A DNA stretch of 64,000 bases from assembly GCA_016779935.1 (NCBI GenBank), contig JADHMQ010000001.1, positions 62,001-126,000 of the forward strand, given 5' to 3'. A model generated the notes under the pieces. The model was not told the origin of the DNA. It was given only the letters and a program-made list of their open reading frames with translations, and did not search any database. Of the stretch, positions 54,360 to 61,539 are shown one piece after another. Each line of letters starts with the position of its first letter. The first letter of the stretch is position 1. The stretch comes from Flavobacteriales bacterium. Its GTDB lineage: Bacteria > Bacteroidota > Bacteroidia > Flavobacteriales > UBA7312. Both the position numbers and the translations under genes were made by a program.

Positions 54360-55529
54360 TTATTTGCTTGTCGAAAATACTCTTTTTATGCCAAAACCAA
54401 GATGAACACCATAGTTTTGAGAAGGTATGAGGGCGTTGGCTTGTTTTGTAAATAGTTTAAACTGGGTCTTTTTTCCAGTGAAATTGTAAGCAAACTGAAA
54501 ACCCGATTTTTCATAACCGCCTAGATGGTATCCTAAGCTAAAGCCATGCTTTCTAAAGCTTTTGTGAAGGTCAAGGGCAAATCTTGGGGTAGTATAAAAC
54601 CTTGGTTTATAAACAACAGAAAAGGTATAGGCATCTATGAACCCTGAACGGCTTAACTTAAATAGATTTAAGTCGAACGTTATGGGCAATCTCCAATTGT
54701 AACTTTCCTCATTATATATTTGAAAAATGTCTTGAATACTATCAAAATAATTTTCCAATATACTGTCGTTGAACTCTATGAAATCGTCAATATTTACACC
54801 TTCAAAACGCCATTCGCTATCAATGAGTACATTGGTTGTTTTTTCATTCCATCTAATCATTCCCAAATCCTTGAGGCTTATGTCAATATGACCATTTCTA
54901 ATTGAATCAGAATATTGAATGTTCAATGCCGCTCCCTTGCCGTTTAGAGCAAAGAGATTGTTCATTAAATCAGTGGTGTCGCTAAAATGCCCTTCAAAAG
55001 CTATATCATACTCAAAGAAGTCGCTAAACTCATCGGTGTAAAAGGTCGCTTTGTTGACGTCCAATTCAGCAAATTGATGTCCTGCTAAGAGAGAAATAGA
55101 GGTGTTAAACTTAGAGTTCCATTGATAAGCAATCTCAAACTTCGAGTAGTGGTAAGCGGAGAAATCTAAAGGTTCTAAATCCAGTTCCTCACCTCTAAAT
55201 GGAGAGTTTCCCAGCAAGCAAAGTTTTACAATATCATCAGAATAAGCACCATAGGCTGCCAAGTGGTTTCCAAAAGCAATACTCCATCCTTTTTTATTCT
55301 GATATTTTAGTTCATTATCAATTTCTCCTTGAAAGTAATTATTAGGGGCTAAAGCTGAAATAATATTATCCTTTTCCTTATTGTCTAAAAAGCCGTAGGA
55401 ATTTGACAGTAAAGGCTCATTGATGTGGGTATTCATTAAACCCATATGGGTATTCATTTCTAAACTACTTTCTTGAGCTTGTGTCAGCAAAGTAAAAAGT
55501 AAAAATACTGTGGCTAGAGCAATTCTCAT
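54360..55529 (-). CDS. Predicted outer-membrane protein, DUF5723-like
   Basis: 389 aa with a signal peptide (ALATVFLLFTLLTQAQ). The rest reads as many short amphipathic strands (WSIAFGNHLAAYGAYSDD, YHYSKFEIAYQWNSKFN, YTFSVVYKPRFYTTPRF, FSLGYHLGGYEKSGFQFAY) and resembles the DUF5723 group of Bacteroidota outer-membrane barrels. The substrate is unknown. It overlaps the lipoprotein gene upstream by one base (TAATG), so the two are translated together and may form a complex. Confidence 0.7.
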   Translation of the reverse strand: MRIALATVFLLFTLLTQAQESSLEMNTHMGLMNTHINEPLLSNSYGFLDNKEKDNIISALAPNNYFQGEIDNELKYQNKKGWSIAFGNHLAAYGAYSDDIVKLCLLGNSPFRGEELDLEPLDFSAYHYSKFEIAYQWNSKFNTSISLLAGHQFAELDVNKATFYTDEFSDFFEYDIAFEGHFSDTTDLMNNLFALNGKGAALNIQYSDSIRNGHIDISLKDLGMIRWNEKTTNVLIDSEWRFEGVNIDDFIEFNDSILENYFDSIQDIFQIYNEESYNWRLPITFDLNLFKLSRSGFIDAYTFSVVYKPRFYTTPRFALDLHKSFRKHGFSLGYHLGGYEKSGFQFAYNFTGKKTQFKLFTKQANALIPSQNYGVHLGFGIKRVFSTSK

Positions 55530-57568
55530 TAGTCTATGGTGTAGTTAAAGTTAGCAATGAGTTTGAGATCAATGTAATAGTCACTGTATAGGGTTACAAA
55601 CTGTTCGTCTGCTCTTGTATTCAGCTTTACTTCGAAAGCTATCTTTTCGGCAGCATTCAGACTTTGGCTAATGGATTCAAAAAGAAAAGTCAGTTCGCTT
55701 GATTTAGCGGCTATACTTTTTCCATTAATATCAACTTCACTGGCTTGAACAATTTGTTCGGAGTCCAAAGATTCCAAAATTGTTCCATTACCATCTAGTA
55801 AATTGATAATCACTTCAGCGTCTAGGGGATATTTGTTTTTAGCCAAAAGTGTAAAAGTTCCTTCATTTATATCATCGACATTACTAATATTCACATCCAA
55901 AGTGTCTTTAATTACTATTTCGGATGCTTTTATAGATAATGGTATGCCAATTTCAAGATTAGTTTTTAAGCCAAAATCGCTGTACAAAAAGCCTTCAGAA
56001 TTATCTTGATTAGGATTTGTAATCAGCTCAAAGGAGAAGTCCATTGTTTCAGGTTTACTCTCTATAAGTTCATCAATATTAGAGTTCATTTCATCAAAGG
56101 AAATACTGCTGCTAGATGGTGTAATAGGTTGGCTAGTCGAATTATTTTCAACTGCCGATGCAATGGTAAAAGGGCTAGAGAGTAGTGGGCTTGTTAGACT
56201 TACTGTTCCTTGACTATTTTCTCCACTTAGGTTTTTAATCCAGACATTGGCATTTGCTCCCAAGTAATTCTCAGTATTTAATACGACATCTATTTGTGAT
56301 AAATCAATTTCGCCCTGAAAATTAGAAAAGTCGCTAAAATCAATATTCTGATTTTCAGAAAAGGTGTCAGTGCCCAATATTCCCCACGCTTTTTCGGGAA
56401 CTATTTCGTTAATAGTAATGGTATTGAATACGCTATCTTCTAGAGAGATGTTAGTGATGACGCCAGAGGAGTCTATAAATCCTGTAGACTGGGTATAAAT
56501 GGTATTAATGGTGTCGCCAAATTTGCCAGTCATATCAATTTCATAGCCAGAAAAATCAAAAAACTTAGTTACGGTAATGGATTCCCCTTCAGGAGCAGGA
56601 GGGAGGTTAAAATTAAACTCAAAAGGCTGACCATTTAAAGTAGTTCCAGGAATTTTATACTGAATTTTTATAGTGTCTTGAATGGTACTTACACCTACAA
56701 CACTTACACCACCCTCGCTAACTAATACTCTATTGAGCTTAATATCATCAAGTTGGAAGGAAACCACTGTATCTTCATCAAATATCTGTTGCGTTGGGAA
56801 TATGGCAATGCCTTCGTACAGTTCAATATCCCTTATTTTTATTTCTGAAATTAAAGCATCAGAATAGTCTATGTTAACGGCATTTGGTGCTGTGCCTACA
56901 ATATCAGCACTGATGATTTCCACCTCTAAATTACCTAATAAAGTTTGACCTGCTAGGGATTCACTTGCTATTTCTGTAGCTCCACTTTGCAGTAGTGGAA
57001 TGTTCATGCTAATTATATTAGTACTCGAATTCTCATTTCTCAATTCTAATACCACATTACTGAGATCTGAGGGTAAATTATTGACTATTTTGAGGTCAAT
57101 ATAGCCTTCTGTAAAGGTCATTTCTTCAAAATATTCGTTCGCATCGATTGGAAAGGTATCGTTCAGTAAATCTGAATATGCTGGAATAACTGCATTGCTT
57201 CCATTGGGTAATAAAAGGGTTCCAAAACTGATTGATGAGATGAGTTCTCCTAGAGTAATTTCATTAGTAACTACCGTATTTGAAAAGTTAATGGATTTAA
57301 GCTTTACATTTTTGGTAGTGCTTATTTCTTCTAAACTAATCAAGCTATCTGGTTGGTAGTTTATAAGCTCTTTAAGAAAGACAAATTTTAGACTGTTGTC
57401 GCCAAGGGTATCAAATTGAATGGTGCTATCGTTTGCCAAATTCAATAAACTCAATTGAGTGTAGGCTAGGGGGGTGCTGAAATCGGCATTCCATACGGGT
57501 TTCTCAAAATCATGTTTGCACGATGACAGAAATACAAAGAGAATTAAAATCTTAAGGATGGACTTCAT
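55529..57568 (-). CDS. Large beta-rich lipoprotein of unknown function
   Basis: 679 aa with a lipobox (VFLSSC, C17). The mature protein is almost entirely short beta-strand-like segments with many Ser/Asn/Thr (LPSDLSNVVLELRNENSS, DAEVIINLLDGNGTILES), as in elongated surface lipoproteins. No named domain is recognised. It is followed directly by a DUF5723-like barrel (1-nt overlap), suggesting a barrel/lipoprotein pair such as those used for surface exposure or capture; this is inference from order. A -7 box (57586-57593) lies 17 nt upstream of the start. Confidence 0.7.
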   Translation of the reverse strand: MKSILKILILFVFLSSCKHDFEKPVWNADFSTPLAYTQLSLLNLANDSTIQFDTLGDNSLKFVFLKELINYQPDSLISLEEISTTKNVKLKSINFSNTVVTNEITLGELISSISFGTLLLPNGSNAVIPAYSDLLNDTFPIDANEYFEEMTFTEGYIDLKIVNNLPSDLSNVVLELRNENSSTNIISMNIPLLQSGATEIASESLAGQTLLGNLEVEIISADIVGTAPNAVNIDYSDALISEIKIRDIELYEGIAIFPTQQIFDEDTVVSFQLDDIKLNRVLVSEGGVSVVGVSTIQDTIKIQYKIPGTTLNGQPFEFNFNLPPAPEGESITVTKFFDFSGYEIDMTGKFGDTINTIYTQSTGFIDSSGVITNISLEDSVFNTITINEIVPEKAWGILGTDTFSENQNIDFSDFSNFQGEIDLSQIDVVLNTENYLGANANVWIKNLSGENSQGTVSLTSPLLSSPFTIASAVENNSTSQPITPSSSSISFDEMNSNIDELIESKPETMDFSFELITNPNQDNSEGFLYSDFGLKTNLEIGIPLSIKASEIVIKDTLDVNISNVDDINEGTFTLLAKNKYPLDAEVIINLLDGNGTILESLDSEQIVQASEVDINGKSIAAKSSELTFLFESISQSLNAAEKIAFEVKLNTRADEQFVTLYSDYYIDLKLIANFNYTID

Positions 57569-57585
57569 CTTAGAGTAAATTTTTA

Positions 57586-57593
57586 CAAATGTA
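57586..57593 (-). promoter_or_regulatory. -7 promoter box of the lipoprotein-DUF5723-kdsA operon
   Basis: On the minus strand TACATTTG fits TAnnTTTG, 17 nt before the ATG. No good TTG at the right spacing is seen in the adjacent end of rarA. Confidence 0.45.
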
Positions 57594-57600
57594 TTAAATA

Positions 57601-58878
57601 TCAGTAGTTGTATTTATCATTCCAACGGCTATTTAAGAATTTTCGTATTTGTTTTTCTCTCTCATTGTCTCCAGGATTGTAGAATACTTCACCTTTTATT
57701 TCATCTGGAAGAAATTCTTGTTCTATAAAATTATTGACATAATTGTGAGCGTAGGCGTATTCTTTACCGTAATCCAAGTCTTTCATTAGCTTAGTGGGGG
57801 CATTTCTTAACTCTAGTGGTACAGACAGGGCGCCTTTTGTTCTTACCATTTCCTGAGCTTCGTTAATTGCCATGTAAGATGAATTACTTTTTGGTGAGCT
57901 AGCTAGATAAATGGCGGTATGGGAGAGTATGATTCTTGCTTCTGGCATTCCAATAACATTTACCGATTGAAAACAATTATTAGCCATTATCAGTGCCGTA
58001 GGATTGGCATTGCCAATATCTTCGGACGCTAATATAATTAGCCTTCGGGCAATAAACTTAATGTCTTCTCCACCTTCTAGCATACGTGCTAGCCAATATA
58101 CTGCTGCATTGGGGTCACTGCCTCTTATGGATTTTATAAAAGCTGAAATAATATCGTAATGTTGCTCGCCTGATTTATCGTACAAAGCAATATTTTCTTG
58201 TGCCGATTCCATAACCAAATCGTTAGTTATGGTAATGTCATTGGTGGTTTGGGTATTGACTACAAGTTCAAAGACATTTAATAATTTTCTACCATCTCCT
58301 CCAGAGAGTCGTAATAAGGCATCACTTTCTTTAATAGTTATTTTTTTTTGGCTTAAAATTTCGTCTTTCTGAACAGCTAGTTCAAGCAATTGAAGAAGAT
58401 GTATTTTTTCAAAGCTTTCTAAAATGTATACTTGACAGCGTGATAAAAGAGCCGAGATCACTTCAAATGAAGGGTTTTCAGTCGTTGCACCAATGAGGGT
58501 TACTATGCCTTTTTCTACAGCATTTAAAAGAGAGTCTTGTTGCGATTTGCTAAAACGGTGAATCTCATCAATGAATAGGATAGGAACATTTTTGCCAAAT
58601 AGCCCTAAAGAGCCAGCTTTTGTAATAACTTCACGTACGTCCTTTACTCCAGAGTTAATGGCACTAAGGGTATAAAATGGTCTGTCGAGCTGATTGGCTA
58701 TAATATTCGCCAAGGTTGTTTTTCCTACGCCTGGAGGTCCCCAAAAAATGATGGATGGAATGATGTTGTTTTTTAAGGTTTTGAGAAGTACACCATTTTT
58801 TCCAATGAGGTGTTCTTGTCCTATAAAATCATCTAGTGATTTGGGTCTTAATCGTTCGGCTAAAGGGGTAGTGTTCAA
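57601..58878 (-). CDS. rarA: Replication-associated recombination protein A (RarA/MgsA)
   Basis: 425-aa AAA+ ATPase acting at stalled replication forks, related to clamp-loader subunits. The start has PLAERLRPKSLDDFIGQEHL. Walker A is WGPPGVGKTTL (46-56), Walker B is LFIDEIHRFSKSQQD (101-115), the sensor region is LIGATTENPSFEV, and ALLSRCQVYIL contains the arginine finger. The C-terminal tetramerisation domain follows (YDLGKEYAY-like, ALSVPLELRNAPTKLMKDL). It begins 4 nt after a T9SS-exported protein gene, an odd neighbour for a DNA repair ATPase. Confidence 0.95.
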   Translation of the reverse strand: MNTTPLAERLRPKSLDDFIGQEHLIGKNGVLLKTLKNNIIPSIIFWGPPGVGKTTLANIIANQLDRPFYTLSAINSGVKDVREVITKAGSLGLFGKNVPILFIDEIHRFSKSQQDSLLNAVEKGIVTLIGATTENPSFEVISALLSRCQVYILESFEKIHLLQLLELAVQKDEILSQKKITIKESDALLRLSGGDGRKLLNVFELVVNTQTTNDITITNDLVMESAQENIALYDKSGEQHYDIISAFIKSIRGSDPNAAVYWLARMLEGGEDIKFIARRLIILASEDIGNANPTALIMANNCFQSVNVIGMPEARIILSHTAIYLASSPKSNSSYMAINEAQEMVRTKGALSVPLELRNAPTKLMKDLDYGKEYAYAHNYVNNFIEQEFLPDEIKGEVFYNPGDNEREKQIRKFLNSRWNDKYNY

Positions 58879-58882
58879 GCGA

Positions 58883-60004
58883 TTAGTGAATTAGAATTCT
58901 TTCTTGTTTGTCGTTTGTCTTTAACAAATAAAACCCTTTTTTGACTAATGGAAGTTCTAATGGTTGGTTTTTAATAACCTTATCTCTAAGAATCATCTGC
59001 CCTTGAAAATTGTATATTTCTATTTCTGAATCTTCGAATTTCCAAATGATACTTCCACCACTATGGATTGGGTTAGGGTAGAATAAATGATCTTCTGTGT
59101 TAAATTCCTCTACCGTAATGGTTTGGCAATCGGCTTCACAGTCTTCTAATGTGGAATACTCTCCGGTGTTGTCAGACAGTTCCATGCAGCCCATTAGTCC
59201 ACATGTAAAGCTTGTTACATCACCAAAGTCTTCAAAAATGACTGTATTGTTTCCAGAGTTTGGAATGGCTAGTATATCTGTATCTCTATTGAAATAGATA
59301 TCAGCAGGTGAACTCATATTAGCTACAACAACGGTAGAGCCACCACTAAAGTCACTATTAAATTTGTTAATGGAATTGTTGCTCCATGCAGAAACATAAA
59401 AGTCTCCATTATTATCCATAGCAATACCGTCACAAGAACCTAATGTTGTAGAGGTTGCTGTGGAATAGGTAGAGTCACTCATATCAATTTCGTAGATGGG
59501 TGCATTGCTTCCCCAACACACTACCAGAAGTCTGTCTTCTATATCATCGTAGAAAATTCCATTTGGTGTTTTCGGTAGGTTTTCAATGTACATATTGAAA
59601 GTGCCACTTGGGATATTGTATCTGTAAATGTCTTTACCAATAAAGTCAGTAACAAATACGTCATTACCCTTATGCGTGATGCCGTTGGCAAAAGTAGCTC
59701 CTAAATTGATGTTAACGGTTTCTTCTCCGCTTTGTAAGTCATAAGCTTTTAAGGAGCTACCACTACAGGCATAGACTTCATTGCCAATAACTTCTAATCC
59801 GTGAGGTCCAGCACCAACCCCTGAAACAAATGACTCAAGTACATCATTTTCTAAATCATAAGAAAGTATTTTCCCATCAGAAGAATTGGAAATCAGGTAG
59901 CGGTCTCCCTCGCTATCGTAATCTACACTTTCAGGGCCGTTATATTGTTGTCCAAAAGCACTCAAACTTATGAGCAGAACACTTACAAGAGTTAAATACT
60001 TCAT
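58883..60004 (-). CDS. Secreted SMP-30/lactonase-like propeller with T9SS type A sorting domain
   Basis: 373 aa with a signal peptide (LVSVLLISLSAFGQQ). A propeller spans ~20-265 with repeats like GPHGLEVIGNEVYAC, FANGITHKGNDVFVTD, TPNGIFYDDIEDRLLVV and CDGIAMDNNGDFYVS, resembling SMP-30/gluconolactonase and NHL propellers. A Cys-rich mini-domain follows (CGLMGCMELSDNTGEYST then EDCEADC, ~266-295), then a type A T9SS sorting domain (FYPNPIHSGGSI ... KGFYLLK). Lactonase activity is inferred from the fold and from the neighbour, an aldose-dehydrogenase-like protein with the same mini-domain. The start overlaps the neighbour's stop by one base. Confidence 0.8.
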   Translation of the reverse strand: MKYLTLVSVLLISLSAFGQQYNGPESVDYDSEGDRYLISNSSDGKILSYDLENDVLESFVSGVGAGPHGLEVIGNEVYACSGSSLKAYDLQSGEETVNINLGATFANGITHKGNDVFVTDFIGKDIYRYNIPSGTFNMYIENLPKTPNGIFYDDIEDRLLVVCWGSNAPIYEIDMSDSTYSTATSTTLGSCDGIAMDNNGDFYVSAWSNNSINKFNSDFSGGSTVVVANMSSPADIYFNRDTDILAIPNSGNNTVIFEDFGDVTSFTCGLMGCMELSDNTGEYSTLEDCEADCQTITVEEFNTEDHLFYPNPIHSGGSIIWKFEDSEIEIYNFQGQMILRDKVIKNQPLELPLVKKGFYLLKTNDKQERILIH

Positions 60005-61539
60005 TAGTTTATGATTAGTTTTCCGTTGTGGGTGTTGGCTTTTATAAAGTACACACCGTTTTCAATTAATCCGTTAAGGTTTAGGCGTTTGTTTTCTACT
60101 TTTTGTTCGTGTACCAATTGCCCTTGAATGTTCATGATTTGAAGGTGAAATGGATCGGCATCGATATTGAAAAGCAGTTGCCCTTCAGTTGAGTTTGGGT
60201 TAGGGTAAAAGCTAAACGCTTTAGCAGAATTATCATCTATGCCAGTGGGGCTTGTACAAGCATTGGTACAATCGTCAATAGTACTGTATTCACCCAAGCC
60301 ATCGTTTACTTCAACACAACCATCAACAGTACAGTTGAAAGTTGCTGCATAAATGTAATCGTCATTCCAAAGCTCAATAATCTCATTAGGTCCTTGGCTT
60401 GGCCATGAATTACCGTTAGTAGCTAAGTAAATCTTTCCATTAGGAGCAACACATATATCTCTTAAGCGTCCCCATTCGTATTGAAAAAAGTCAGTTTCAG
60501 ACTCTATTAAATCTCCGGCTTCGTTGAATGTAAAGCGAACCAGCTTCTTTGCTTTTAGAACCGTCATCAATAATGAGTTCTGAAATTCTGGTATAGAAGG
60601 GTGGTCGTACCAAATGATATCTGAAGGAGCAATAGTTGAAGAAGAGCCACTACTCCATAAAGGCTCTACAATATTGTTTTCTTCACAATAATCGTTTTCG
60701 GAAAAGGAACTACTTAAATCATCGGCATAATACATATCTGCAAAGTCATCGCAAAAACCTTGAACATTAGGCCATCCGTAGTTTAGATTCGATTCAATAA
60801 TATTTAACTCATCATCGTTATTAGGACCGTGCTCTGAACTATAAACAATACCGTTTGGAGCTACAGCTAGCCCTTGTGCATTTCTATGACCAATACTGTA
60901 TACATAGCTGTTTGGATTTGGATTATCTGATTTAGGATTACCGAAGTCATCACTATCCTTATTGATATTAACTCTAAGGGTTTTACCAGTAAGTGCATCA
61001 CTATCCTGAGAAGCGTTCCAGTCTTGAGCATCTCCAGTAGTAATTAAAAGGGTAGTGTTGTCAATGGCTAGCAATCGACATCCAATGTGGGTACTGTTAC
61101 CGTCAATACCATCAACAATAACCGTTTCGTTAATTAGGGCATCTTCTTCAGCATCGTATTCGTAATACACTATTTTCTCACTAGCGTTAGCTGAAAAACC
61201 ATAGGTGTAAGCCAGAAACACATAAGGAGCACCGTTATTAAATTCTGGATGAATTTCCATTCCAAGTAATCCTGATTCACCTGAGTCGTACAATTGAGCT
61301 TCTAAATTCAGAATAGGGTATTTTTCTCCTGTTTCAACATTCACACGGCTAATTTGTCCCGACCGCTCAGTTACCCATATGTGGTTGTCTGGACCCCATT
61401 TTATCTCCCAGGGAACATCCAAACCATTAACGACTTCCCTTTCCATTAATACCGTTCCTTCATCTAGTGGATGAGTTTGTGATAAAGTTTGGTTTAAAAA
61501 AAATAGGCATAAAATTACAGTGAATATATACTTGCTCAT
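60004..61539 (-). CDS. PQQ-dependent aldose dehydrogenase-like protein with T9SS type A sorting domain
   Basis: 511 aa with a signal peptide (FTVILCLFFLNQTLSQ). Glucose/sorbosone dehydrogenase propeller (~25-390): LDVPWEIKWGPDNHIWVTER, SGLLGMEIHPEFN, GNSTHIGCRLL, LTGKTLRVNIN, YSIGHRNAQGLAV, EHGPNNDDELNI, NYGWPNVQGF. His and Asp residues of the family's catalytic site appear kept (GHRNAQG, EHGPNNDDE). A Cys-rich mini-domain (CTVDGCVEVNDGLGEYST, DDCTNAC) and a type A sorting domain (FYPNPNSTEGQLLF ... NGVYFIKA) follow. It is likely surface-exposed and would oxidise aldoses with PQQ. It heads an operon with the lactonase-like gene and rarA. Confidence 0.87.
   Translation of the reverse strand: MSKYIFTVILCLFFLNQTLSQTHPLDEGTVLMEREVVNGLDVPWEIKWGPDNHIWVTERSGQISRVNVETGEKYPILNLEAQLYDSGESGLLGMEIHPEFNNGAPYVFLAYTYGFSANASEKIVYYEYDAEEDALINETVIVDGIDGNSTHIGCRLLAIDNTTLLITTGDAQDWNASQDSDALTGKTLRVNINKDSDDFGNPKSDNPNPNSYVYSIGHRNAQGLAVAPNGIVYSSEHGPNNDDELNIIESNLNYGWPNVQGFCDDFADMYYADDLSSSFSENDYCEENNIVEPLWSSGSSSTIAPSDIIWYDHPSIPEFQNSLLMTVLKAKKLVRFTFNEAGDLIESETDFFQYEWGRLRDICVAPNGKIYLATNGNSWPSQGPNEIIELWNDDYIYAATFNCTVDGCVEVNDGLGEYSTIDDCTNACTSPTGIDDNSAKAFSFYPNPNSTEGQLLFNIDADPFHLQIMNIQGQLVHEQKVENKRLNLNGLIENGVYFIKANTHNGKLIIN

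Follow-up and report, generated by a model that had tools for sequence, protein, structure and literature searches.

A candidate sugar-oxidation gene pair in Flavobacteriales and the movable four-cysteine mini-domain carried by both of its products

Two overlapping propeller genes

The window analyzed here is a stretch of 64,000 nucleotides from the genome of a Flavobacteriales bacterium (contig JADHMQ010000001.1, positions 62,001 to 126,000), an assembly of 1.68 Mb that is 99.1% complete. Going by what we take the sample codes to mean, these bacteria are of marine origin, and the host is probably marine. On the minus strand of the window, the gene for P0002, a dehydrogenase, is followed by the gene for P0001, a second propeller. 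Both products carry a four-cysteine mini-domain just upstream of a sorting tail of the type IX secretion system (T9SS), and it is this pair and this mini-domain that we describe (Table 1). An initial annotation of the same DNA, made from the sequence alone, had the genes overlapping by one base, which they do, within TAATG. It also had both proteins exported by T9SS to the cell surface. The type A tails of the two proteins exceed the cut-offs of TIGR04183 and PF18962 (Por_Secre_tail in Pfam, 36.4 and 32 bits against a cut-off of 27), and P0001 and P0002 are co-directional, probably co-translated T9SS cargo; the sorting tails stand as found, while from them and from signal peptides recognized by eye we infer export and a surface location. 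Compared with T9SS type A cargo in general, the tails are of the same kind, with the mini-domain as an addition.

Table 1. Features of the gene pair, in window coordinates
Feature	Position	Strand	Remarks
GSDH-family (ASD-type, PQQ) dehydrogenase P0002	60004..61539	-	511 aa; PF07995, E value 1.8e-67; mini-domain and T9SS tail
Propeller P0001, six-bladed, SMP-30/NHL type, Cj1041c-like	58883..60004	-	373 aa; mini-domain and T9SS tail; candidate Ca-dependent lactonase
Four-Cys mini-domain of dehydrogenase P0002	60247..60345	-	Sequence; AlphaFold2 model, pLDDT 86.9
Four-Cys mini-domain of propeller P0001	59117..59215	-	Sequence pattern
T9SS type A sorting tail of P0002	60007..60207	-	Profile match
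T9SS type A sorting tail of P0001	58898..59080	-	Profile match
Probable signal peptide of P0002	61480..61539	-	By eye
Probable signal peptide of P0001	59951..60004	-	By eye

Predicted chemistry and coupling of the pair

P0002 matches the GSDH family at 228.4 bits against a Pfam cut-off of 25. Its solved relatives are 3a9g (E value of 3.2e-40), sGDH 1c9u (9.3e-38), and 2g8s (3.4e-24), of which 3a9g and 2g8s are soluble pyrroloquinoline quinone (PQQ) aldose sugar dehydrogenases (ASD). Residues H151, R219, N220, K329, R358, and R360 of P0002 align with the positions of 1c9u and 3a9g that we take to contact PQQ, and these positions are conserved in P0002 and 11 close homologues, the lysine position being an X in one of them (L037). 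Like the soluble PQQ aldose sugar dehydrogenases, P0002 combines this propeller family with the H, R-N, K, and R-x-R positions, and it has E where sGDH has Q, as does 3a9g. Unlike them, it bears a T9SS tail and the mini-domain and falls short of the cut-off of the subfamily model TIGR03606 (209.9 against 434.55 bits). Relatives of P0002 were found in 16 named loci, 14 of them from Flavobacteriales or Cryomorphaceae and the other two, at 34 to 37% identity, from Saprospiraceae and an unclassified bacterium.

PQQ synthesis by the organism, which the initial annotation had proposed as a check on its reading of the pair, found no support: PqqE had no match in the host genome. Over 60 genomes, the host's included, none reached the PqqE cut-off and 18 gave weaker matches, one of them in family f1 (the genome families are labeled f1, f7, f8, f11, and f15 here); 14 control genomes likewise matched only below the cut-off, which leaves the search without a true positive control, and these control matches are probably other radical SAM proteins. 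PqqA and PqqC also had no match in the host genome, a result that is uninformative because the control genomes gave none either. Bacteroidota (n = 206) that carry the PQQ importer PqqU and lack the biosynthesis genes are reported in PMC12124388. Given the lack of a PqqE match and this precedent for import (PMC12124388), the natural reading is that the PQQ with which P0002 is presumably loaded would be scavenged rather than made by the host, and that P0002 would use it to oxidize aldoses outside the cell.

The association of P0002 with P0001 is conserved among relatives. In a survey that began from 60 of them, all seven f1 genomes with an ASD-type enzyme (the host and six others) had the second propeller directly after it. 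The second propeller itself was present in 9 of 10 f1 genomes, the tenth being 66% complete, and in all nine a GSDH-family partner was adjacent or, in one case, fused. The partners in two of these genomes, G002 and G004, are GSDH proteins of another subfamily, with 21 to 24% identity to P0002: in G002 the swapped partner adjoins the second propeller (L165:4027-6418), and in G004 both parts form a natural fusion in one frame of 742 amino acids (L164:2096-4321). A partner was also seen in 4 of the 16 named loci (4-kb flanks), which apparently belong to genomes included in the f1 counts above. Adjacency and fusion support a coupling of P0001- and P0002-type proteins.

P0001 is a six-bladed propeller according to its AlphaFold2 model, which is confident over the propeller and of low confidence over the mini-domain and tail, and according to its matches to other six-bladed propellers. 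This agrees with SMP-30/gluconolactonase and Ca-binding propellers (PF08450; DrSOD 9m59, Cj1041c 22gu, RPA3624 8djf), to which P0001 aligned with Z scores of 29 to 32 over about 240 residues; it differs from the four propellers compared in its low identity to them (16 to 25% in the fold alignment), its sub-cut-off match to the SGL family, and its T9SS tail. Residues E25, N107, N148, and D192 were found in all 11 sequences examined (P0001 and 10 homologues, including two of f7 and the fusion). They occur in the same order and with similar spacing as Glu200, Asn290, Asn339, and Asp381, the Ca ligands of the DrSOD propeller according to PMC12362111, which also describes that propeller as a lactonase for 2-coumaranone; the likeness between the two sets is one of order and spacing. 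Altogether, a lactonase function of P0001 is plausible, with Ca binding and lactone hydrolysis as its putative activities. P0001 would most likely act on the presumed lactone product of P0002 or on a related ester, and the two proteins would thereby catalyze successive extracellular reactions.

Several observations weigh against this picture. The SGL match of P0001 lies below the Pfam cut-off (23 against 26.3 bits); the fused homologue of G004 scored 30.2 bits over residues 324 to 593, a stretch that starts inside its GSDH part. The top solved matches of P0001, by sequence and by fold, are Cj1041c and NHL/Pizza propellers (Z scores up to 31.8), with the DrSOD propeller at 30.9 and lactonases ranking lower (29.2 for RPA3624, 29.0 for a putative lactonase of the SMP-30 family), and since Cj1041c and Pizza/NHL stand above the lactonases, the fold does not settle the function of P0001. 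The DrSOD propeller, whose Ca site is of the kind proposed for P0001, lacks efficient gluconolactonase activity according to PMC12362111. The G002 and G004 partners keep the H, R, and N positions and lack K and R-x-R; their chemistry may therefore differ, and a P0001-type propeller need not be paired with a PQQ dehydrogenase in every genome. Outside f1, the ASD-type enzyme stood alone in all four f7 genomes and in the single f15 genome that have it, and the second propeller was without a GSDH neighbor in 2 of 2 f7 genomes (about 10 kb fetched in each case; the two flanking frames were checked by Pfam for G047 and by BLAST only for G028). It is possible, though in our view doubtful, that P0001 is instead a non-enzymatic, NHL-type binding propeller and that the pair as a unit binds or senses sugars, as the best matches of P0001 to Cj1041c, NHL, and designed Pizza propellers and its weak SGL score would suggest. 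Against this stand the invariance of the E/N/N/D residues, which follow one another as in a Ca-lactonase site and at matching intervals (PMC12362111), and the coupling with dehydrogenase-family propellers.

On balance, and with modest confidence, we favor an exported two-protein sugar-oxidation unit whose mini-domain is a movable module and not the link between the partners. Of the two-step oxidation proposed in the initial annotation, from aldose to lactone to acid, the dehydrogenase assignment of P0002 is upheld by its family and its PQQ-contact positions, with sugar oxidation itself a prediction. The lactonase-like label of P0001 is compatible with its six blades and E/N/N/D residues, weak by its SGL score, and unsupported by its nearest matches. 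The coupling is backed by conserved adjacency and one fusion; the enzymatic order is predicted. If the pair does oxidize sugars with a borrowed cofactor, it would bear on sugar use by small-genome aquatic bacteria.

Spread, position, and fold of the mini-domain

The mini-domain occurs once in each protein of the pair as C-x4-C-x15-C-x3-C over 33 residues, with the string GEYST identical in both. The initial annotation had given both cysteine pairs as C-x3-C; the GEYST string, the second C-x3-C, and the place before the tail are as it described, whereas the first spacing is C-x4-C. With the 31-residue copy of P0001 as the query in the host genome, the P0002 copy was returned at 48% identity and an E value of 4.8e-6, a likeness beyond chance. 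Among the matches listed, the host genome holds eight copies, carried by the pair, a fasciclin, an Omp28-like protein, a phospholipase-D-like protein, and unnamed proteins, and 6 of the 61 tails above the cut-off have a mini-domain directly upstream.

Across the order Flavobacteriales, 395 genomes were searched, and 69 matched at E values up to 1e-4 (49 from f11, 10 from f1, 7 from f7, 2 from f15, and 1 from f8, by the rows listed). A scan of the phylum found the mini-domain in 1 of 394 genomes, the host's own. The f8 genome (G471), at 4.0 Mb, lies outside the small-genome families and has three mini-domain matches. In the bacterial loci that were scanned, 72 frames carried 135 copies, with up to 13 per frame, and these frames fell into 27 clusters by their similarity outside the mini-domain. 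The 72 carriers came from L007, L034 to L045, and L092 to L146; they were picked by hand among the matches listed rather than drawn at random, and several end at contig ends. In these scans and in those of viral frames, profile hits with E values of 0.01 or more were dropped, and the profile used (A2) contains both window copies, which makes their own profile E values circular. The pattern C-x4 to 6-C-x15-C-x3-C fits 117 of the 135 copies. An aromatic residue precedes the first cysteine in all 133 scorable bacterial copies, a feature that the selecting profile favors (counted without the duplicate locus L178). Copy number is variable even within one cluster (3, 2, 1, 4, and 1, two of the frames being cut by contig ends). 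Among the carriers tested, Pfam recognized M43 peptidases, a kelch propeller, CotH, and a plastocyanin-like protein.

The mini-domain usually sits ahead of the sorting tail. In 62 of the 72 frames, no more than 100 residues separate the last copy from the end of the frame, compared with 16.7 frames expected at random placement. A PNP motif was found in 43 frames, in 37 of which the copy is 11 to 13 residues upstream of it (exactly 12 residues in 26). The 10 frames with the copy further in comprise 3 that are lipoprotein-like, with the mini-domain near the lipobox as judged by eye, 4 with a type A-like end, and 3 with a short tail.

In 11 of 13 short-ended carriers, the type A tail is replaced by a short C-terminal motif, K-I-x-D-x-L-G-R-E ... 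F-Y-I-Y-D-D-G-T-V-E-K-K-I-I, assigned by pattern in eight and by eye in three; the remaining carriers are L127, truncated at a contig end, and L109, which has a different ending. Examples are L133:1031-2011, L117:748-2160, and L142:426-2144, and the motif also ends the dehydrogenase homologue in L039. No NCBIfam model names this tail in four mini-domain carriers, in the isolated tail, or in the L039 enzyme. The enzyme in L041 has another tail, which at 24 bits scored just over the NCBIfam threshold of 23 for type A. The short C-terminal motif is possibly a second sorting signal.

Models in Pfam, NCBIfam, and PHROGs do not name the single copies tried, apart from a chance-level match of one copy to DUF1482 (E value of 0.11), and two NCBIfam T9SS models extend from the P0001 tail into its mini-domain at scores far under their cut-offs. 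The eight-copy array of L118 reached the whole-protein cut-off for LDL-receptor class A (36.8 bits, E value of 4.7e-9) with no single stretch significant, and the 13 copies of L123 did not reach it; we read the L118 score as a sum over near-identical cysteine repeats and do not assign the mini-domain to that family. Because the P0001 model was of low confidence over this region, the mini-domain was modeled alone. AlphaFold2 (12 rows) gave the P0002 copy a hairpin followed by a helix, with a pTM of 0.54. In a VIA comparison with seven chains, all five rows were Kunitz-type chains (Z scores of 2.5 to 3.2, 31 to 35 residues at 1.6 to 2.5 Å). Foldseek E values for the model were 3.4 and worse, and weak sequence hits of the profile included boophilin (0.028) and anntoxin (0.094), both on the CxxxC helix, with NKG2-D, vicilin, and TRIM2 among the others. 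The Pfam Kunitz model did not match any of five single copies, in a search where HMMER discards most hits with E values over roughly 0.1. The mini-domain thus weakly resembles the C-terminal half of Kunitz/BPTI proteins (2uuy, 1toc, 5nx3, 9ijw), with four cysteines instead of six, in about 33 residues, and no N-terminal inhibitory loop. With four cysteines, no Pfam match, and no significant E value, this is likely resemblance and not membership.

The model suggests a beta-beta-alpha unit, presumably stabilized by disulfides. Four cysteines on such a unit could also suggest something like a zinc finger, but disulfides seem likelier because the protein is presumably exported. As far as a search of titles and the beginnings of abstracts reaches, the literature holds no description of the mini-domain. 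Uncatalogued and easily recognized, the mini-domain sits on viral proteins as well as on surface proteins from several families of uncultured bacteria; annotation would gain from a name for it, and it offers a small expressible unit for testing such repeats.

Viral copies were recovered by two routes: an f11 tandem array as the query returned 2 IMG/VR contigs, and a DNA pattern of the mini-domain returned 14 IMG/VR stretches, for a total of 16 loci (L168 to L183) on 14 contigs. The profile hit 16 of 16, in part circularly because L170 to L183 had been picked by the mini-domain motif. The largest array has 11 copies in a frame of 3468 amino acids. In L170 and L182, the frame that carries the mini-domain is itself hit by phrog_14478, a PHROG family annotated as virion structural protein; in L168 and L169 the hit is to a neighboring frame. 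No PHROG family matched the carriers in L171, L176, and L180. No mini-domain match was found in phage records or plasmid collections, which leaves IMG/VR as the sole source of viral copies. A few viral carriers also have CTDP-type repeats (C-x-D-P-x-A-x-N-Y).

Possible roles of the mini-domain

The initial annotation had suggested that the mini-domain docks the two proteins to each other. Its presence on both window proteins is consistent with this, as is the finding that their tail blocks (the tail with or without a mini-domain) are closer to each other than to those of the non-pair carriers compared. In a tree of 52 rows, 13 of the 14 tail-block rows of the two families fell in one group with support of 97/91, the G005 dehydrogenase row lying outside that group without a resolved position; X letters were removed from the rows, and carriers whose last copy ends fewer than 66 or at least 100 residues from the frame's end were left out. 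A single local duplication would explain such alikeness between neighbors. Meanwhile, pairing does not follow the mini-domain. Of the seven ASD-type pairs, five have it on both proteins, G006 has it on the second only, and G005 has it on neither; the G002 pair has none among the matches listed and none in its two sequences, and a single copy is present in the fused protein of G004. The mini-domain is also widespread on unrelated proteins (27 clusters, 69 of 395 genomes) and occurs on viral ones, the very outcome that the initial annotation had set against docking. Since the pair persists without a mini-domain that is common elsewhere, docking is not supported, and we regard it as highly improbable. 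Near the G005 pair, a gene with four tandem copies adjoins on the other strand (L042:5439-6776).

The remaining explanations concern the carriers at large. The tight spacing to the PNP motif would be expected if the mini-domain aided T9SS export, tail cleavage, or anchoring; we consider this quite unlikely given that so few tails in the host genome (among the matches listed) have one, that three carriers are lipoprotein-like and seven others have it well inside the frame, and that the viral frames showed no tail of the PNP type. A module for ligand binding, for instance of glycans, or for adhesion, by which surface proteins and virions would be kept attached to a target, can be proposed tentatively from the tandem arrays, the many kinds of carriers, the frames matching a virion structural protein, and the aromatic residue, with the profile's preference for it kept in mind. 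The conserved positions, however, are mostly Cys, Gly, and that one aromatic, which the fold alone would explain, and the preferred place of the mini-domain is the anchored end. We also think it unlikely, though worth stating, that an undescribed half-Kunitz-like family has been swapped between virion proteins of uncultivated viruses and surface proteins of uncultured, small-genome Flavobacteriales as a repeatable handle for a shared target such as a glycan of algae or of a host surface; if so, virus particles and bacterial surface enzymes would stick to the same extracellular target. A spacer or adhesion role is the most likely one. The mini-domain, presumably held by disulfides, would be a small element that can be repeated and that serves for spacing or sticking where surface proteins are anchored; it is spread over many extracellular proteins of small-genome Flavobacteriales, mostly right before the sorting tail. 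The mini-domain is, in short, an uncatalogued movable extracellular module, and the pair itself is ordinary and comparatively well supported.

After the pair, the same strand of the window (54360-58878) carries a rarA/mgsA-like gene, a gene for an unnamed protein of 679 amino acids, and DUF5723. Among the six other f1 ASD-type loci, rarA is kept in four, being missing from its place after the pair in G008 and G009, and the gene for the 679-amino-acid protein is kept in all six.

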